Origin: Acidobacteriota bacterium | Lineage (GTDB): Bacteria > Acidobacteriota > Terriglobia > Bryobacterales > Bryobacteraceae | Direction: 5' to 3' | NCBI GenBank assembly: GCA_026394075.1 | Contig: JAPKYX010000048.1 | Coordinates: 1 to 43,005 of the forward strand | DNA length: 43,005 nucleotides | Shown: positions 1,519 through 15,666 of the stretch, one piece after another | Layout of the letters: every line of letters begins with the position of its first letter | Numbering within the stretch: position 1 is the stretch's first letter | Made by a program: the position numbers and the translations under genes | The notes under the pieces: generated by a model | The model's input: the letters and a program-made list of their open reading frames with translations, nothing else | The model's database searches: none | Told to the model about the DNA's origin: nothing

Positions 1519-3615
<2,097 letters not shown>

Positions 3616-3642
3616 TTCGCCCGCGAGCTACTGATTCAAAAG

Positions 3643-3677
3643 ACCGCCCGGGCTTAGGCTCGGGCGGTTTTGCTTTT
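3643..3677 (+). terminator. Intrinsic terminator after the radical SAM gene
   Basis: Perfect 8-base stem (ACCGCCCG 3643-3650, CGGGCGGT 3661-3668) with a 10-base loop, followed by a T-rich tail (TTTTGCTTTTT). It starts 27 bases after the radical SAM stop codon. This is the clearest intrinsic terminator in the window. Confidence 0.85.
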
Positions 3678-3688
3678 TGGGGCTCAAG

Positions 3689-3835
3689 ATGCGACGGCTT
3701 GAAAACCGCTACGTCGATGCCGAGACAGAGGAGCGGCGCGCTCGAACCTTCGCCGTACTGGAAGCCAGCCGAGGGATCATGTCTGAGGAAGAAGGCAAGC
3801 AGCTGCAAGCCAACATTAGGAAGTGGCGCTCGTAG
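3689..3835 (+). CDS. Small hypothetical protein, 48 residues
   Basis: An ATG at 3689 opens a 48-residue charged frame (MRRLENRYVDAETEERRART, ending NIRKWRS) that stops 40 bases before the vapB-like start. Composition (many E, R and A, heptad-like leucines) is compatible with a short helical protein, and its position just ahead of a toxin-antitoxin pair suggests an antitoxin-like or remnant gene. No family was recognised. There is no strong ribosome-binding site (GGGGCTCAAG precedes the ATG). It may not be expressed. Confidence 0.4.
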   Translation: MRRLENRYVDAETEERRARTFAVLEASRGIMSEEEGKQLQANIRKWRS

Positions 3836-6286: not shown

Positions 6287-9200
6287 ATGTCGATGTTTGG
6301 TCTGGGCAACTTGAGCAGCGGCTGGCGCGTAAGCGCGCGCCTGGTGGTGGCCATCCTCGTACCGGCCGCGATCGTCGGCTGGCTGCTGGTGAACGGAGCA
6401 TCCCAGAAGCGGGCGCTGGAAGAGCGCAACATGCGTTGGCTGGGACATATGGCCAACCAGATAGAGGCTCGGATCTCCAACTTCGACGAAGCCGTGGACC
6501 GCTGGGCCTACATCGGGGCCAAAGAGAAAACCAATAGCGCCTCGGTTGCCGCCAACAAGTTCGGCGTCGTGAATAATCTCGACACGGAGGACTGCCCTGC
6601 CGGCGGGACCAACTTTAGCGTCACCAAGGAAGCGGGCAAGCTGAAACTGCATTTCCGCCGGACAAAGAATGGGGATGCCTGCGCGTACTCCGATCTCGGT
6701 AAGGTGGTGGAACAATCGCTGCGGAAGGACGTCTTCTCGGCGGTTATATTGGCGGAACGAAACGGAACTGTTCTCTATCAGACGGACCAGGCAAAGATGA
6801 GGTTCACCGACCTCGACTTCCTCTTCAAGGCTGCTCCAGCCAAGGAAGCGCCCTCTCCGGCCAAGTCGGATGCCGCCCCCAAGGCCTCCGTTCCCGCAGG
6901 TCCCGGGCAACATGTGCCAACTGCCTCCACGCACTCCATCAAGTCGATTGGCGACCAGGAGTACTCGGTCTACGTACAGCCTCTTCGGCTCCGGTTGTCC
7001 GCGGCCAACGACACCGGCCAGGGCGATTGGTTTCTTGTCGGACTATCGGAAGCCAATACGCCTTGGGAGAGTTCGGGTCCCCAGGGTTTGCTTCTTGTCC
7101 TCCCCCTAGTGGTCCTGCTGGTGGCCCTGAGTTGGCCGCTGCCGCGGTTGTGGTTGATGTCCTCCGCCGAGCCACTGCGGCAAGGCTATCTGGTGATCGC
7201 CGCGGCTTGTTCGATGGGGATTGTGCTGGTGATGACCATCCTGGGTCTGTATTTCTTTATCCGCAGCTTCGCGGATGTGCGGACGGATGGGCGGCTGGCA
7301 ATCTTAGCCGAGGAGATTGGCTCCAATGTCAGTCATGAACTGAAACTGGCCTTGAAGCAACTTGAAATACTCGACAAACGGGCGTATGACAAGCGGCTGG
7401 AAACAGAAGAGGGTGACTCTTCGGCCGTCCGGCTACTCAGTGTCCTGAAGCCGAATGAGATCGTCTTCCCGTTTGAATACGCCGACTGGATCAATGCCAA
7501 CGGCCAAAAGGATTTCCGCTGGACGACATCAAAGGAGCCGGCCCGGCCGATCACAGTCAGTGATCGGCAGTATTTCCGGAATGTCATGGAAGACCACCTG
7601 CTCCCACCACTCACGGCGGGCGCCGGACCATTCGCGGTCGAGCGCGTACTCTCTCGAACCACCGGGCGCATGGTCACCATGCTGGCCGTAAGATCCAAGC
7701 TGGACCAGGAGCAGGTCAAGGAGCAGCGCTTGCCGGTGGCCAATCTGGCCGTGACACTCCCCTCCCTTGAGAGCCCGGTGCTGCCGGCGGAGTTCGGCTT
7801 TGCCGTAATCGACTCCGCGGGCAAGGTCTTGTTCCACTCTGAACCCAGCCGCGTCATGGTGGAGAACCTGTTTGAGGAGTGCCCGGAAGTGCCCGAGTTA
7901 GCCCAGGTGGTGGAACGGCGGGCGACAGCGTCCATCAGTACCAACTATTCCGGAGGCGCGCACCGGATGCTGGTCGCACCGCTGCCGGGGCTGGGACAGG
8001 TGCCCTGGACCCTGGTGGTGTACCGGAAGCTGGAACCCGTACGCGTGGTCCGCGCGCAGGCGATGGTTGGCGCACTGGCATTGTTTGTGTGTTACTCGGT
8101 CGCGGTGCTCGTCATCGCTGGGGGCGTGCTGTACCTATTGGGCCGCTGGAGGCGGCGGTTCATGCCGGCATTGCTGCTCGAAGCAGCTTGGTGGGCACCG
8201 CACGGATCCTGTTACCCGGTGCTGGCCGCCTTTGGCTTTGCCCTGATGTTGATCTATTGGCGCAGCTTGGACGGGGCGACCGGTTCAGTTACCTTCTACA
8301 GTTCGATTGCCGTCGCCGTGTCCTTTCTGACGCTCAGCGCGGTGGCGCTCCGGATCCCGCTGACCCGGCCCTGGCGAGGCATCAGCCTGGTTTGGCTGGT
8401 AACGGCGTCCGCCTGGCTGGCGGCCTTCGCCTGGATGATGAACGACTACTGGATGGTTGTGTTCGCGCCGGCCGGGCTGGCGGCGGCTCGATATGCGCAG
8501 TACCGCTGGAGAGGACGCGGGACGGGTCCGGCATGGCGGACTCCGCGCAGTTGGGTGTTATGGGCGGCGGAACTGGTGGTCTGCCTGGTCATCCTGCCAA
8601 CGTTCGGGCTGGGCAAGATGTCGTACGAGTATGAGGCCGGCCTGTATGCGCGCGAGCTGCAATCGGAGCTCAGCGAGGGCTTCACGCAACAGGGAGAAGC
8701 CCTCGCCCAAAGGCTGGCCGAACTGCCGGGAGCCACCGAATGCCGCCTTGTCCGCCAGCAGTTACTATCCGCCCTGCGGATCGGAGCAGTAACTACCTCA
8801 ACTTGTGCACCCACATACTTTTATGGCGGGGCCGGCTACAACACGCAGATCACCATCGCCGCGGCCCAACGGCATTTGGACAAAGGAGAGCAGCTGGCGC
8901 AGGAAGAGCGGATCAGGAAGGAACGGGAAGATTCTTACAACGCCAGACGTGAGGCGGCCGCGAGGCGATCACCAGAAGCCTATCAACAAGTAGATCAGAG
9001 CATACGCGCGGAGCAACAGCAGGCGGCGGCCGCCAAGCTCATTGAAACAAAGATAGCCGCCGAAGCCGCCCGGCTTGTCCGGGCATCGGAGACCTCAGCG
9101 GCGGCTTGGAAGGAAGAAGTCAAGGCGATTGAAGCCGAGAAGAGGCAAGCTGACGCCGCGAGACTGGCACGGGCCGCCGCGAAGTCCGGGTCGGCCCGGC

Positions 9201-10765
9201 TCGAAGAGGCGAAAGCCATCGCCGGGGAGCGGGCGCGGGAGGAGTCCGCCCGGATCGCGTACGTGAAGAGGATGCAGGGGGAGCAGGAGCAGACCTGCCC
9301 GTTGGCCCCCTGGAAGACGGAAACTCAGCTCGGCTGGCGCGAAGGCGAGCTCACCGGTTTGTTTCAACCAAAGGCCGTGGAGACGGGGGCCTCATGCGCG
9401 GACGAAGGAGGCCTACTGGACGATGCGGTGTTCATTGGATCGGACACCAGCCAAAGTCAGCCCAAGGCTCCCCAGCGCTTGTTCGACGAGGAACCACCCG
9501 CCATTCAGCGCGCCCTGAACAAGTTTCCGATCCTGGTACTGGCGCTGGTTGAATTGCCGTTTGATGCCCGCCAGGAGGGTTTCGAGATGAGGCTGAATCA
9601 GCTGCAACCGGGGGGCTCTCCACCACCTTGGGAGTGGCGTGTCCAAGGTGCCGAGAACGGCACCCACTATTTATGGCTGGCGCAAGATTCAGGAAAGGAC
9701 GACTATCAGGCCATTGCCCGCTCGAAACTCCCGGCCTTTATCCCCTGGAACCTATTCTCTGCGGGCCTCTGGACTGACCCCGACAAGTTGCCGACGCTGT
9801 GGATGGGCATCGAGTTCTGGCTCGGCATGATCGCCGCCGTCGTCGCCTTTCTGTGGTGGGGCCGGGCATTCCGGCAGCGCGTCCGCCTGGACGATCTCCA
9901 GATGCCAGCTTCGATCCCCTTATATCAGCCCGCCACCGTCTGGCAGGGGCGCTTCCTGATCCACATATCGCCCGGCTATCCGGATGCACCGTTGCTCGGC
10001 TATTGGGCCAAGCACTCGCGCATCGATCTGGCGTCTGTCGATGTGTCCTCGCCGCCGGCATTGCCTGAAGGCGGCATCCTGATCACCAATCTGCAAAGCT
10101 GCCTGGCCACGGCCAGCCAACGGAAGATGTGCCTGGACTTGATCGAGGGCGCGATGCGGACCCCCAGCCGTTCGGTGGTCGTCACCACGTCCATCGAGCC
10201 CTTGAGTTATCTGCAATCAGGGGGCGCGGGGGCCGCCGGTGAGCCTGCGGACACAGCCGAGTTGTCGCGCTGGAAGCGCATCACCCACTCGCTGGAATCC
10301 CGTCGCATGGATCCGCCCGAAGGTGTCGCTCCTCCCGAAGATGATGCGGTCTGGATGAGCTGCTCCGTGCACGAGAAGGCGATCCTCACCTACCTGGATC
10401 GCCACAAGCTGGTGGCTCCCACGGCCGGCCCGGTCGCCGCCCGGCTTCTGGGCCGCGGCTTGCTGCGCCGGCGGCCCGATGGCCGCATCGAATTCGCCTC
10501 ACCTCCGTTCCAGCGCTTTGTCAGTGCGCTGCAGGAAGCTCCCGATGAGGCCCTGCTGGCGTCCCAATCAGCCAGCAAGGGTATCTCTCCCTGGGCAATC
10601 GGGATCGTCCTGGTGGGCGTGGTGCTGTTCTTCTCGCAAGAAGAGCTCACCAGCCGTCTGCTGGGCTTCCTGACCAGCGTCGGCGCGGGCCTGGAGGTAT
10701 TGCGCAAACACTTGACCGCCAGCTCCGCCAGCAGCGGCGGCGCCTCTGGCAGTGCCAAGGGCTAA
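6287..10765 (+). CDS. Giant multi-domain membrane protein with Cache-like sensor regions
   Basis: 1492 residues; not assigned to a named family. A first membrane segment lies at about 17-36, followed by a 220-residue extracytoplasmic region. Two segments lie at about 263-326. Residues of about 330-590 look like a Cache/PDC sensor (YADWINANGQKDFRWTTS, SDRQYFRNV, FGFAVIDSAGKVLFHSEP). A cluster of membrane helices spans about 590-790. An alanine/glutamate-rich coiled coil spans about 860-1010. Another helix (about 1168-1195) leads to a cytoplasmic region of about 230 residues with alternating strands (GGILITNLQSC, SVVVTTSIEPLSYL) that recalls an AAA/STAND ATPase, but no P-loop is visible. A final helix lies near 1433-1455. 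GGGGAG just before the ATG is a good ribosome-binding site. Confidence 0.85.
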   Translation: MSMFGLGNLSSGWRVSARLVVAILVPAAIVGWLLVNGASQKRALEERNMRWLGHMANQIEARISNFDEAVDRWAYIGAKEKTNSASVAANKFGVVNNLDTEDCPAGGTNFSVTKEAGKLKLHFRRTKNGDACAYSDLGKVVEQSLRKDVFSAVILAERNGTVLYQTDQAKMRFTDLDFLFKAAPAKEAPSPAKSDAAPKASVPAGPGQHVPTASTHSIKSIGDQEYSVYVQPLRLRLSAANDTGQGDWFLVGLSEANTPWESSGPQGLLLVLPLVVLLVALSWPLPRLWLMSSAEPLRQGYLVIAAACSMGIVLVMTILGLYFFIRSFADVRTDGRLAILAEEIGSNVSHELKLALKQLEILDKRAYDKRLETEEGDSSAVRLLSVLKPNEIVFPFEYADWINANGQKDFRWTTSKEPARPITVSDRQYFRNVMEDHLLPPLTAGAGPFAVERVLSRTTGRMVTMLAVRSKLDQEQVKEQRLPVANLAVTLPSLESPVLPAEFGFAVIDSAGKVLFHSEPSRVMVENLFEECPEVPELAQVVERRATASISTNYSGGAHRMLVAPLPGLGQVPWTLVVYRKLEPVRVVRAQAMVGALALFVCYSVAVLVIAGGVLYLLGRWRRRFMPALLLEAAWWAPHGSCYPVLAAFGFALMLIYWRSLDGATGSVTFYSSIAVAVSFLTLSAVALRIPLTRPWRGISLVWLVTASAWLAAFAWMMNDYWMVVFAPAGLAAARYAQYRWRGRGTGPAWRTPRSWVLWAAELVVCLVILPTFGLGKMSYEYEAGLYARELQSELSEGFTQQGEALAQRLAELPGATECRLVRQQLLSALRIGAVTTSTCAPTYFYGGAGYNTQITIAAAQRHLDKGEQLAQEERIRKEREDSYNARREAAARRSPEAYQQVDQSIRAEQQQAAAAKLIETKIAAEAARLVRASETSAAAWKEEVKAIEAEKRQADAARLARAAAKSGSARLEEAKAIAGERAREESARIAYVKRMQGEQEQTCPLAPWKTETQLGWREGELTGLFQPKAVETGASCADEGGLLDDAVFIGSDTSQSQPKAPQRLFDEEPPAIQRALNKFPILVLALVELPFDARQEGFEMRLNQLQPGGSPPPWEWRVQGAENGTHYLWLAQDSGKDDYQAIARSKLPAFIPWNLFSAGLWTDPDKLPTLWMGIEFWLGMIAAVVAFLWWGRAFRQRVRLDDLQMPASIPLYQPATVWQGRFLIHISPGYPDAPLLGYWAKHSRIDLASVDVSSPPALPEGGILITNLQSCLATASQRKMCLDLIEGAMRTPSRSVVVTTSIEPLSYLQSGGAGAAGEPADTAELSRWKRITHSLESRRMDPPEGVAPPEDDAVWMSCSVHEKAILTYLDRHKLVAPTAGPVAARLLGRGLLRRRPDGRIEFASPPFQRFVSALQEAPDEALLASQSASKGISPWAIGIVLVGVVLFFSQEELTSRLLGFLTSVGAGLEVLRKHLTASSASSGGASGSAKG

Positions 10766-10780
10766 GCAGCACCCGCACTC

Positions 10781-12445
10781 TTAGCAGAGCGCCAGATACT
10801 CGTGCACCAGGCGCACCACCATGGAGCCTTCGCCCACCGCGGAGGCGACGCGGTTCATCGCCCCGGCGCGCAGATCCCCGGCGGCGAATACACCGGGCAC
10901 GCTGGTCTCTAGCGGCAGCGGTTCCCGCTTCTGCTTCCAGGTGCGGGAGTACGCATCATGAGTGGGCAGATCGCGACCGGTCAGCACGAAGCCCTTCTCG
11001 TCGCGCAGCACGGCGGCTGGAAGCCAGCCGCTCCGGGGGTGAGTGCCGATGAAGACGAACAACGCATCCGCCTCCACCGTCTCCTGGGACCCGCCATCGA
11101 GCGAGCTGAACACGACCCTCTGCAAGTGACCATCACCTTCAACGCGTTCAATCTCTGTCCGTGTCCGCAAGTGGATGTTTGGCGTGGCGGCGATCTGGTC
11201 GATCAAGTATTGAGACATCGTTTCGGCCAGGCCATCGCGCCGGACGACGATCTGGACGTCCTTGGCATGGCGGGCGAGATAAACCGCACCTTGTCCGGCG
11301 GAGTTGCCACCGCCGACCACAATCACCCGGCGATCACTGCACGCCTGGCCTTCTGTCGTAGCGGCGCCATAGTAAACCCCGGCCCCGGTATGTTCGGCGA
11401 CACCGGGCGCGGGATGCTCGCGATAGAACATGCCCGTAGCGGCCAGCAGCGCCCGGGTGACAATCTGCCGGCCGTCCGCCAGCGTCAGGTGCTTGTAGCC
11501 GCCATCAATCTCGACAGCGGTTACTTCCAGCGGCACCAGAAACTCCGCTCCCAAACGCTGCGCTTGCATCAGCGCCCGCCGCGTCAGCTCACTGCCACTG
11601 ACCCCAGCCGGGAAGCCGAGATAATTCTCGATCCGCGAACTGGTGCCGGCTTGTCCGCCTGGCGCATGGCGGTCGAGCAGCAACGTCCGCAATCCTTCCG
11701 ACGCCCCGTATACCGCGGCCGCCAAACCCGCCGGCCCCGCACCCACGATCACCAGATCGTAGACCTCCAGCGCAGCCTCCAGCGATCGCCCCAACCGCTC
11801 CGCCACCTGCCGCGGCTCCGGGTTGAGCAGTACCGGCGAGCCATCGTCAAAAAACAAAGCCGGCAGATCGTTGGCCCCGACACCGGCCGCATCCAGGAGC
11901 ACACGCGCCTCCGGATCCCGCGTCAGGTCCAGCCAGCGATAAGGGATGAGGTTGCTCGCGAGAAACGTCTTGATCTCATGCGACCGAGGCGACCATTGAT
12001 GCCCCACCAAGCGAAGCCCCGTCGCTTCCGGCAGGTAAGCCGCCTGCCAGGCATCCAGCAGATCATCGAGCACCGGGTAGAGGCGCTCCTCCGGCGGATC
12101 CCAGGGCTTGGACAGATAGTGGTCCAGGTGCGCTTCATTGATGGCGCGGACGGCGGCGCCAATGTCGGAGTAGGCGGTCAGCAGCACGCGCCGGGCCAGT
12201 GGATACCACTCGCGCGACCGTGCCAGTACTTCCACGCCCAGCATGCCGGGCATCCGCTGATCGCTGATGATCATGGCCAGTGCGTCGCCCCGGCTCTTGA
12301 GTTCGCGGATCGTGTCCAGCGCCTCCTGGCCCGAGGTCGCGCCCACCACCATGTAAGTTTCCCGGTAGCGGGCCCGGACGTCGCGCCGGACCGCGGCCAG
12401 GACTTGCGGATCGTCATCGACAATCAGCAGGAACGGTTTACTCAA
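10781..12445 (-). CDS. Response regulator fused to thioredoxin-like and thioredoxin-reductase-like flavoprotein domains
   Basis: 554 residues, TTG start at 12445 with GGGGGAAAG upstream. Residues 1-125 are a receiver domain (acidic D10-D12, phosphorylation site D62 in [10 protein letters not shown] in LLTAYSD, K in YLSKPW). About 140-225 resembles a glutaredoxin/thioredoxin fold ([24 protein letters not shown]) without active-site cysteines. About 232-554 is a two-nucleotide-domain flavoprotein: [13 protein letters not shown] for [18 protein letters not shown] for NAD(P)[12 protein letters not shown] for FAD. The place where thioredoxin reductase has CxxC reads YYGAATTEG. Only two cysteines occur in the whole protein, so classical disulfide exchange is excluded. 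It overlaps the kinase gene by four bases. Confidence 0.9.
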
Positions 12446-13860
12446 TTCTTTCCCCCATCATGAATCGGCCGCTCGATGGGCAGCGCGACGCGAAACTCCG
12501 TGCGGCCCGGCTTTGAATTGACGCAGATGTCGCCATGGTTGTGACGCACCAGGCGGCGCACGATATCGAGACCCAGTCCAGTGCCTTCGCCCATCGGTTT
12601 GGTGGTGAAGAAGGGGTCAAATATGCGCTTCTGGATCGATTCCGGAATGCCGCCGCCGTTGTCGATCACCTGGATCACCACTTTGTGCTCACCCTCCTGG
12701 TGCGCGCGCACTTCCACCAAACCCGATTGCGGCACGGCGTCCAGCGCGTTGTCGATCAGGTTCGCCCAGATCTGATTCAGCTCGCCCCCAAAGCCGCGGA
12801 CATGCGGCAGGCCGGGCTCAATCTCCACGGTCACTGCGACCGACTTGCCGCGCGCCTTCGACTTCAGCACCGCCACCGTGTTGGCCAGGCTGAGCCGCAC
12901 ATCGACAGGCTGCGCGACGTTTGCTTGATCCATGTGCGTGAAGCCCTTGATGGCCACCACCAGGCCCGAGATGCGCAAGGCCGCTTCCTGGATCTCAGTC
13001 GCCAAGCCCCTCACGGCGCAGCCGGAGGCCGCCCAACTGAGCACCGCTTCTAGCGCCGGACCCTGAACCGCCGCCGCCAGCCGGTCCAGCGCGTCCAGGG
13101 TGGCCGGTGTTTCGGCCAGCAGATCGGCCAGTCCAGCATCCAAGCCGTGGTCTCCCAGCCAATCGCTGATGGCATCTTCGCGTTCCGCCTGTTCCAGCGG
13201 AGACCGCACGCCCGGAATGTTTTGAGCCAGGCACGCCGTCCGGATGGCGTCCACGGCGGCCAGTTGAACATCGGACAGCCGCGCCGTCCCCAGTACCCGG
13301 GCGGCCCGCTCCGCATCGTTCAGCCGGTCTTCCAGCAAGGCGGCGCTGCGCTCGATGGCTGAGGCTGGGTTGTTCAGCTCGTGAGCGAGGCCCGCGGACA
13401 ACTTGCCGAGGGAAATCATCTTCTCGTTGTGCATACCGCTGGACGTAAAGTTCCGGGCGCGATCCACCAGGGTGCGCACCAGCAGCGCCGTTACTTCATG
13501 GCATTCGCGGATCATCTCGGTCAGATGATCGCGATGAATGGCGAGAATGACGGTAGGCTCCTGCGCCACGGACGCCGCTGGTGGGCTCACCAGGCGTGAG
13601 TAGGGGAGGACACCGGAGACGTCGCCGCCGCGCCATTCCATCAGCGTGGTCATGCCGGCACCTTGGTCGGCGGACATCGCCAGGTGTCCGGAGAGAATGA
13701 CGAACATACTCTCGACCGGTGCACCCGGAGAGCTGAGCACGTCGCCCGGGCTCAACTGGCGCACGACGCCATGTCCGGCTAGCCAAGCCAGCTCTTCAGG
13801 AGGGGCTGTGCCAAGGGTGCGATGTTGAGCCAGCTGTTCGTGCAGTTGGCTGTTGCTCAT
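12442..13860 (-). CDS. Sensor histidine kinase with N-terminal cyclic-nucleotide-binding-like domain
   Basis: 472 residues from the ATG at 13860; a GTG at 13914 would add 18 residues of unlikely sequence. Residues of about 15-130 form a CRP/cNMP-type beta barrel ([35 protein letters not shown]). There is no membrane segment, so it is cytosolic. The dimerisation/phosphoacceptor helix holds [20 protein letters not shown] with the H-box histidine at about 162. ATPase motifs follow: N-box [15 protein letters not shown]1 [11 protein letters not shown]-box region [12 protein letters not shown], and G2 [11 protein letters not shown]. The closely overlapping regulator-flavoprotein gene is the evident partner. 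The signal could be a cyclic nucleotide or another small ligand; key cNMP residues were not resolved. Confidence 0.9.
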
Positions 13861-14122
13861 CGGCCACGCCCGCGATGAGATGCCGAAGGCAGAGATGGCG
13901 CACCGGCCAGCCACAATTCAGAAACCGACATGACCCGCTCATCGTAACATTTGGCGCGCGGGGAACCGCCCCGCTCCCCCCCCCGTTGCGTTGGGTCGCG
14001 CTACCCGGCGTACGGACAAAACAGACCTTTTATGACCGCTTTCCGTCCTGCTGGAAATTCGCCTTCCATTCAGCGAAATTAAACGAAAAGGTGAGACGTT
14101 TAGTGATGCTTTGGGGCTAGTG

Positions 14123-14148: not shown

Positions 14149-15666
14149 GTGACACTGGGAACAAAGATTGTGGTTGGCGCGTTGGCGGCCGTGGTGGTGA
14201 CGGCTGTCGCGGGAATTGTGGTGCAACGCACCGTGATCCGTGAGCAAGGAATCCAGATGACCCGCAACACCATGCGGACGGCAATTCTCGAGGCGGAGAA
14301 CGTCCGCGAGTCGATTTCCGGCCTCCGCCAGGCCAACGTGTTCAACCAGGAACGGATGCTAGAAGAGATCAAGACCACCTCCGATTTCCGGACCACCGGC
14401 GCTTATCAGACCGTGCCCGTGGTGGCCGCCTGGCGCGCCATCGAGAAGGTGGCCGCCCAAGAGGGCTACCAGTTCCGCATCCCCAAGAACAACCCGCGCA
14501 ACCCCAAGAATCAACCTACACCCGAGGAGGCAGCCTGGCTCAGCTCATTCGAATCGGGACGTCTGTCCGAGGTCTTTGAGGTGAACAGCGCCCGCAACGA
14601 AATCGTCTATGCGCGCCCGATCAAGCTGACGCCGGATTGCCTGAGCTGCCATGGCGAACCGGCGAACAGCACCACCAAGGACGGCCGTGACGTGCTGGGC
14701 TTTCAGATGGAGAACTGGAAGGCCGGAGAAGTGCATGGTGCCTTTGTGCTGAAGTCCAGCCTGGACCGCGTGGATGCTGTGGTGCAGGCCGGCATGCTGA
14801 AAACCGTGATGTGGGTGTTGCCGGTGACGGGTATGGTGTGCGCCGTGTTGATCTGGTTTAGCCGCCGCTCCATCATCGGCCCGCTTCGCAAGGCCCTGGT
14901 GGACGTGAAGCAGACCAGCAGTGAATCCACCAGCGCCTCGGGACAGATCTCGCAATCGAGTGAGTCGCTGGCCTCCGGCGCCACCCAGCAAGCCGCTTCG
15001 GCGGAAGAGACCGCCGCCGCTCTGGCTGAGATGCGGGTGGCGGTAGAGAAGGGCGCCGAACAGGCCTGCCAAGCGCAAGTCCTGGCCGGAGAGGCGCGCC
15101 AGTACGCGGAGTCCGCAGCCGAGCAGATGGAGCGGGCGCTCGCCGAGATCGAGGCGATTGAGGCCTCCAACAAGCGTGTCGCCCGCATCGTGAAGGAAGT
15201 GGAAGAAATCGCCTTCCAAACCAATCTGCTGGCTTTGAACGCCAGTGTGGAAGCCGCCCGGGCCGGCCAGTCCGGGGCCGGGTTTGCCGTGGTGGCTGAC
15301 GAAGTGCGCGCGCTGGCGACACGCTGCGCCACCGCCGCCAAAAGCACCGAAGAGATCGTCACCAAGTCGATCGGCGATTCCAAGAAAGGCGTGGCCTTAA
15401 GCCATCAGGTCCGCATGGAACTGGCGCAAATCGTCGACTACACCGAACGCGTCAGTAAGGCGATCAGCAATACGGTTGCGGAAGCCAAAAGCCAAAACTT
15501 GCGCATCGGCGGCGTCGATACGGCCATGCGCCAGATCAGCGTCGTCACCCAATCGATCGCCGCGCAATCAGAAGAAATGTCAGCCTCGTCGCAGGTGCTG
15601 GCGCAGCAGGCCCGAGTGCTGGACGGATCGGTGGAGAGCCTATCGTCCATGGTCGGCGGCTTCTAG
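14149..15666 (+). CDS. Methyl-accepting chemotaxis protein with c-type-haem-like sensor domain
   Basis: 505 residues, GTG start with AAGGGGG four bases upstream. Membrane helices at about 7-26 and 219-240 frame a periplasmic domain that looks like the DUF3365/Tll0287-like family: [20 protein letters not shown], followed by [19 protein letters not shown] at 164-168 is a covalent haem-binding motif, so it may sense redox state, oxygen or NO. A recognisable HAMP domain is missing; the cytoplasmic part starts with a helical linker. The signalling hairpin tip is clear ([20 protein letters not shown] at about 353-372). No CheA/CheW genes are nearby. It ends 10 bases from a convergent peptidase gene. 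Confidence 0.92.

Follow-up and report, generated by a model that had tools for sequence, protein, structure and literature searches.

A histidine kinase gene and the gene of its presumed response regulator lie together on the reverse strand of a 43,005-nucleotide stretch of DNA from an Acidobacteriota bacterium (assembly GCA_026394075.1, contig JAPKYX010000048.1; hereafter the window). The 554-residue regulator joins a receiver domain to a glutaredoxin-like domain and a predicted flavoprotein core with the fold of thioredoxin reductase (TrxR), and neither of these last two domains has an active-site CxxC motif. Across the family this cysteine loss is fixed and the replaced site is itself conserved. 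Judging by the two sequences, the anatomy of the kinase and regulator on its own is almost certain. As to function, we tentatively read the pair as a two-component system with an enzyme output instead of a DNA binder: a phosphorylation-gated oxidoreductase passing electrons from reduced nicotinamide adenine dinucleotide (phosphate) (NAD(P)H) through flavin to an external acceptor, a chain that as a whole is quite possible but short of probable.

The core without redox cysteines and its family

At least 583 relatives were found among 592 stretches in genome_contigs, and the best 80 loci were kept for locus counts. A first family alignment (n = 92) combined these 80 with the window regulator, a paralogue from its own genome and 10 plasmid sequences; an extended alignment of 120 members comprises 95 of the receiver type and 25 in which a cyclic nucleotide-binding (cNMP) domain is fused to the core. 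An active-site CxxC occurs in none of the 120, which, with at least 583 relatives, shows that the observation is not due to chance. In the window regulator A361-A-T-T364 stands at this position and the only cysteines are C369 and C554; the AATT and the total of two cysteines had been noted in the preliminary description. When aligned with TrxR from Staphylococcus aureus and from the same genome (contig C123), the two TrxR cysteines line up with G360 and T364, the regulator having one residue more in between, and E365 aligns with the Asp that follows the TrxR motif, which in the Escherichia coli enzyme we take to be the acid catalyst. Nine residues (Y359, E365, N381, G384, Q385, R402, M410, S411 and W474) are invariant in all 120 members. 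Column 369 holds Cys in 92 of the 120 and Phe in 18 of the 95 receiver-type members, while two members have a Cys at column 355, ahead of the motif position. Five have a single Cys in the whole protein, at columns 369, 369, 448, 454 and 515.

The motifs for flavin adenine dinucleotide (FAD) and NAD(P)H are retained, with GxGxxG in 119 and GDxR in all 120 members, and the window regulator carries the TrxR set GxGxxG, GGGxSA and GDxR. Its Pfam Pyr_redox_2 match spans residues 229–540, and Pfam found no output domain besides this core. The regulator scores 215.8 bits against the low-Mr TrxR model TIGR01292 (cut-off 343.45) and 139.5 bits against the AhpF model TIGR03140 (cut-off 502.9), below the cut-off in both cases. 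Each of the receiver residues D10, D11, D62, T90 and K113 is retained in 93–94 of the 95 receiver-type members, and the window regulator is 51–58% identical to the 37 more distant members. Beyond Acidobacteriota, members occur in Bacteroidota, Balneolota, Actinomycetota, Cyanobacteriota, Deinococcota and Pseudomonadota, in line with the earlier expectation that similar CxxC-less fusions exist in other phyla. One member (L013) is truncated to 468 residues and its kinase open reading frame (ORF) is short. Another (L015), of acidobacterial type, 69% identical and within the clade of the window, comes from a metagenome-assembled genome titled Bifidobacterium breve that is probably mislabelled or contaminated.

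The middle domain had been called thioredoxin-like and cysteine-free. The absence of cysteine holds, as S152-P-R-S155 stands where glutaredoxin has its CxxC, but the domain is glutaredoxin/mycoredoxin-like, which is the better label. Its closest solved sequence relative is mycoredoxin Mrx1 (Rv3198.1, 2lqo; profile E 3.2e-7), and Pfam Glutaredoxin matched in 25 of 35 family members at E up to 1, the window protein itself falling under the cut-off (18.4 versus 22.9 bits). S152 is Ser in 92 of the 95 receiver-type members and the site usually reads SPxS; its neighbourhood holds one Cys in 12 of the 120 members and two in none.

An AlphaFold2 (AF2) model of the regulator, the best of five, was built from 42 sequences without FAD (mean predicted local distance difference test score, pLDDT, 84.9). 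A fold search with the whole model covered residues 225–554 only, and the glutaredoxin-like domain was folded apart (pLDDT 89.0). The model superimposes on Lactococcus lactis TrxR labelled FR (5mh4) with Z 31.8 and 1.9 Å over 295 residues, and far worse on the structure labelled FO (5mjk; Z 28.1, 7.4 Å, 291 residues); agreement with the E. coli TrxR–thioredoxin complex 1f6m was 2.5 Å over 306 residues. The FR-like pose, which would fit NAD(P)H on the flavin with no need of a dithiol swing, is suggestive only. Fold matches to the glutaredoxin-like domain include 7c12 (Z 11.6, 1.5 Å, 73 residues) and 2lqo (Z 8.8, 3.1 Å, 80 residues).

Partner kinase, sister form and zinc-finger neighbour

The pairing of kinase and regulator made in the preliminary description is borne out by the survey, in which a kinase homologue including the cNMP part lies on the same strand within 1.5 kb at 73 of the 80 loci. 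Seven loci are without a full kinase; L011 and L016 have only the C-terminal part at a contig edge, and L070 and L084 have less than 200 nt upstream. A further 38 stretches with flanks of mostly 2–5 kb (the own-genome paralogue, 17 plasmid and 20 acidobacterial) were scored by BLAST to the window kinase at more than 45 bits, and a kinase adjoins 13 of 14 receiver-type genes but none of 24 cNMP-fused genes. Because the receiver form has the kinase beside it and the cNMP-fused form does not, the receiver looks like the input of the kinase to a shared output.

The sensor part of the kinase has the cNMP-binding fold. The kinase alignment has 75 rows, one of which (L001) repeats the window kinase, giving 74 distinct near relatives, and the whole motif GxLP[FY]SR is present in 73 of them. 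A canonical cNMP cassette reads GE...R-[ST]-A, with Glu and Arg; in the presumed cassette region of the kinase GxLP[FY]SR takes the place of this pattern, and R107 could serve as the Arg. Beyond the near relatives 12 partner kinases could be tested, and 8 of them lack the motif (L093, L094, L095, L097, L105, L110, L113 and L128); the ligand may thus not be the same in every subgroup.

On the family tree, the minimum number of label changes is two for 'receiver' and three for 'cNMP', and 'receiver' formed a single split in 0% of the 200 bootstrap replicates. A group of four cNMP-fused members (100/96) joins the receiver-type L127 (99/90) within a set of 35 rows that otherwise consists of receiver rows (100/99). 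Receiver and fused cNMP domain thus appear, from their architecture, to be exchangeable input modules on one output core. The window genome has its own regulator paralogue, 54% identical, on contig C149 (L092); there, at 2488-3808, the paralogue kinase is split, its cNMP and HATPase parts lying in separate ORFs and frames through a frameshift or an assembly error. On two cyanobacterial plasmids (L097 and L105), glgX and an AGE-family epimerase gene lie directly upstream of the flavoprotein–kinase pair. Several Bacteroidota loci, such as L071 and L077, have ergothioneine-synthesis-like genes, presumably EgtB/EgtD, some 2–4 kb upstream, possibly as a lineage effect.

At 33 of the 80 loci a gene for a ubiquitin-binding-type zinc finger (zf-UBP) protein is found no more than 3 kb away on the same strand. 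In the window genome the single zf-UBP gene is on contig C149, beside the regulator paralogue. Among 197 Acidobacteriota genomes, zf-UBP was found in 30 of the 39 with the flavoprotein core versus 16 of the 158 without (Fisher p 3.4e-16), and in 13 of 21 versus 15 of 155 when family f2 was left out (p 2.3e-7); these values ignore phylogeny, the omission of that one family being the only control for kinship, and the 39 include a borderline match in G019 (5.2e-61, residues 228-551). The PF02148 control matched in 2 of 14 named genomes. On Streptomyces and Tsukamurella plasmids the gene order is flavoprotein, kinase, zf-UBP with overlaps of 4 bp, and on four actinobacterial plasmids (L099, L104, L106 and L107) clpB-trxA-zfUBP precedes the cNMP-fused flavoprotein gene, a cassette that suggests a link to protein-damage stress. 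As a zf-UBP ligand, a Gly-Gly tag at the C-terminus of the kinase or flavoprotein was considered and ruled out, the commonest C-termini being EV, EI, EN and DG, NG. Four of these elements were absent from the preliminary description: the SPxS site, the unusual motif in the kinase cNMP fold, the zf-UBP partner and the sister form with a fused cNMP domain.

Table 1. Features of the kinase–regulator pair, in window coordinates.
Feature	Position	Strand	Basis
Regulator gene (receiver, glutaredoxin-like domain, TrxR-fold flavoprotein output; 554 aa)	10781..12445	-	ORF with TTG start
Histidine kinase gene	12442..13860	-	ATG at 13860; alternative start GTG at 13914
Kinase stop and regulator start overlapping by 4 bp (TTGA)	12442..12445	-	ORF coordinates
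cNMP_binding-fold sensor domain (kinase residues 52-137)	13504..13761	-	Pfam PF00027, 38.0 bits, cut-off 27.5
GxLP[FY]SR motif, here GVLPYSR, at presumed phosphate-binding cassette	13594..13614	-	Kinase alignment
H178, presumed phosphorylated His in LAHELNNP	13381..13383	-	74/74 distinct kinases
HATPase_c domain (kinase residues 379-481)	12472..12780	-	Pfam PF02518
Receiver domain, Response_reg (residues 7-118)	12092..12427	-	Pfam PF00072, 57.8 bits
D62, presumed phospho-acceptor	12260..12262	-	Alignment
Glutaredoxin/mycoredoxin-like domain (residues 138-226)	11768..12034	-	Mrx1 profile match, fold matches
S152-P-R-S155 at glutaredoxin CxxC position	11981..11992	-	Alignment with Mrx1
TrxR-fold FAD/NAD(P)-binding core (residues 229-551)	10793..11761	-	Pfam, TrxR alignment, structure superposition
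A361-A-T-T364 at TrxR CxxC position	11354..11365	-	Alignment with TrxR
E365, invariant acid at the Asp after the TrxR CxxC	11351..11353	-	120/120 members
C369, commonest yet not invariant cysteine	11339..11341	-	Cys in 92/120
C554, C-terminal cysteine	10784..10786	-	Translation

The overlap of the two genes likely reflects translational coupling. The kinase ORF extends over 12442-13914(-), or 490 residues, and its in-frame ATG at 13860 agrees with where the preliminary description ended the gene. A 501-residue ORF on the forward strand (10958-12463) is antisense to both genes. The regulator is adjoined on the opposite strand by a 1492-residue ORF (6287-10765, forward) that matched nothing in Pfam at E ≤ 0.001, and a chemoreceptor gene with a Tll0287-like domain (14149-15666, forward) is divergent from the kinase.

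A proposed mechanism and its alternatives

In the chain we propose, the cNMP-fold domain would bind a ligand that sets the activity of the kinase, which would then phosphorylate D62. Phosphorylation might alter the packing or dimerisation of the receiver and glutaredoxin-like domains, opening or closing access to the flavin, with the glutaredoxin-like domain acting as a docking or gating domain. NAD(P)H would reduce FAD, from which electrons would pass directly to an external acceptor at the AAxTE face with no internal dithiol relay of the kind found in TrxR and AhpF. A precedent for flavin-to-partner transfer by TrxR-fold enzymes lacking CxxC is given by the ferredoxin reductases (FNRs; PMC10294844). 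The sister form would have its fused cNMP domain in place of kinase and receiver, and the zf-UBP protein would be a frequent accessory, perhaps as acceptor or recruiter. We infer the ligand, phosphotransfer, cofactor, reaction and acceptor of the system from sequence.

Several observations weigh against this proposal. The architecture does not give its direction, and the flavin could be the sensor. No kinase was found in the stretches of three of the 80 loci (L019, L024 and L029), nor in the stretch examined for L127, and the outgroup branch of the tree is long, leaving the direction of the receiver/cNMP swap unsure. The kinase motif is not general, being present in 4 of the 12 wider partner kinases (L096, L121, L122 and L123) and replaced by GEISML in the own-genome paralogue. 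Six of the 120 members have a CxxC outside the active site. The FR-like pose comes from one AF2 model without FAD, in which the FAD-site residues 261–282 fall below pLDDT 50. Nor is zf-UBP universal: none lies in the fetched stretch at 45 of the 80 loci, and when the genomes of 33 of these were searched it was found elsewhere in 21 and in none of the other 12. Likewise, 9 of the 39 flavoprotein-positive Acidobacteriota genomes lack it and 16 of the 158 negative ones have it.

The most direct counter-evidence is biochemical and bears on the earlier suggestion of a reaction other than disulfide reduction. According to the excerpts of PMC6544261, ATII-TrxR, a Crp-TrxB (cNMP-fused) enzyme 87% identical to a Cupriavidus metallidurans protein, binds FAD (1.87 mol/mol), reduces 5,5'-dithiobis(2-nitrobenzoic acid) (DTNB) with NADPH or NADH, and reduces a thioredoxin with NADPH, with proposed cysteine pairs 206–223 and 376–467. 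The homologue on the C. metallidurans CH34 megaplasmid has ASPV at the CxxC position, and its C234, C251 and C404 correspond to C206, C223 and C376 of ATII-TrxR at a single offset of 28, C467 being without a match. ATII-TrxR, compared through domain order and cysteine spacing only, is therefore probably a relative that likewise lacks the cysteine motif, and the activities reported for it speak against the earlier suggestion. The regulator might accordingly be a disulfide or thiol reductase of unusual route, in which reduced flavin would directly reduce thioredoxin or another disulfide, perhaps with C369 or a low-molecular-weight thiol bound by the glutaredoxin-like domain. The fit of three of the four ATII-TrxR cysteines, with C376 on the column of C369, and the position of trxA, which precedes the cNMP-fused gene by two genes in the four actinobacterial plasmid operons, speak for this, yet the proposed pairs are not conserved. 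The columns of C206, C223 and C376 hold Cys in 17, 12 and 92 of the 120 members; in the window regulator the first two are F and R. With C369 replaced by Phe in a number of receiver-type members and the lone cysteine of single-cysteine members at differing columns, we regard such a route as unlikely.

We give about the same low weight to a flavoprotein that acts as the sensor, the redox state of its flavin, or its occupancy by NAD(P)H/NAD(P)+, altering receiver phosphorylation or dephosphorylation, or the choice of partner. Strong conservation of the flavin and nucleotide sites despite the lost catalytic cysteine pairs would suit such a role, as would the lack of another output domain in the regulator and of an obvious catalytic role for the zf-UBP neighbour. 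However, the cNMP-fused form keeps the same core without a receiver, so the core is not specialised for the receiver, and the probable relative described in PMC6544261 is reported to turn over substrate.

A plain NAD(P)H oxidase, or a quinone or metal reductase, under phospho-control and with no protein partner would fit the presence of flavin and NAD(P)H motifs and the absence of a dithiol, but the conserved glutaredoxin-like domain and the frequent zf-UBP neighbour suggest a specific partner, and we find this reading very doubtful. A decaying TrxR, turned pseudoenzyme by drift, would explain the loss of both cysteine pairs but is ruled out, with next to no probability left to it, because the nine core residues are invariant and both the identity to distant members and the gene pair are conserved.

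The family would bring together three things rarely joined in bacteria: two-component signalling, a flavin-enzyme output and a ubiquitin-type zinc finger. A bolder generalisation, in which we place little confidence, is a new class of signalling outputs, glutaredoxin–TrxR flavoproteins that lack redox cysteines and are driven by a direct ligand or a phosphorelay, which would act on or read a zf-UBP-held partner via NAD(P)H. If true, the clpB-trxA-zfUBP operons would point to a redox-plus-protein-quality-control switch, and we know of no counterpart for such a switch. Owing to the receiver/cNMP swap, the output can be tested in two forms that occur naturally, and single-cysteine members such as L041 would show cleanly whether disulfide chemistry plays any part.

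Comparison with known systems

The architecture had earlier been thought uncharacterised. For the receiver form this stands within the open-access PMC literature, where no paper among the matches listed dealt with a receiver form lacking redox cysteines or with its link to zf-UBP; the combination of receiver and TrxR in one protein, on the other hand, is already in print (PMC5847659). That fusion likewise has a receiver and a TrxR-like module, a likeness judged by description and not by sequence alignment, and the excerpts of the paper mention neither cysteine loss nor a glutaredoxin-like domain, partner kinase or zf-UBP. The excerpts of PMC8945050, which deals with thiol reductases of Deinococcus, name no form fused to a receiver or cNMP domain.

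The family spans many phyla, and its cNMP-fused form occurs in several plasmid records named 'cyclic nucleotide-binding domain-containing thioredoxin-disulfide reductase' without the defining cysteines. These proteins have the same core with the same invariant residues and no active-site CxxC, and in them a fused cNMP domain takes over the place of receiver and kinase; the disulfide reduction claimed by the name is without sequence support. The zf-UBP neighbours match bacterial 2ida (E 2.7e-34) as well as the eukaryotic HDAC6 (1e-6) and USP49 (8e-6); they belong with these zf-UBP proteins, and are bacterial and stand-alone, with CCDSS at the position of CGRY in HDAC6.

Low-Mr TrxR (TIGR01292) shares its fold and its FAD and NAD(P)H motifs with the regulator, but only TrxR has the redox CxxC. 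In AhpF, as in the regulator, a TrxR-like core follows a thioredoxin-fold domain, but the regulator has a single glutaredoxin-like domain without Cys and no CxxC in the core. Mycoredoxin-1 (Rv3198.1, 2lqo) has a CxxC, CGYC, where the regulator has SPxS, and its nucleophilic Cys is missing in the regulator. The FNRs are more distant by sequence (FNR 3ab1, E 2.7e-19, versus TrxR 4gcm, E 2e-44), and the model also matches 8c16 (FNR2, Z 26.1) and 7a76 (Bdr, Z 24.9). To our knowledge, TrxR-like FNRs contain neither a receiver nor a glutaredoxin-like domain. PMC10294844 gives as their features a residue of the C-terminal helix that stacks on FAD and the reduction of ferredoxin or flavodoxin. These enzymes have, as the regulator does, the TrxR fold without CxxC, and are described in the excerpts of PMC10294844 as moving electrons from flavin to a partner.

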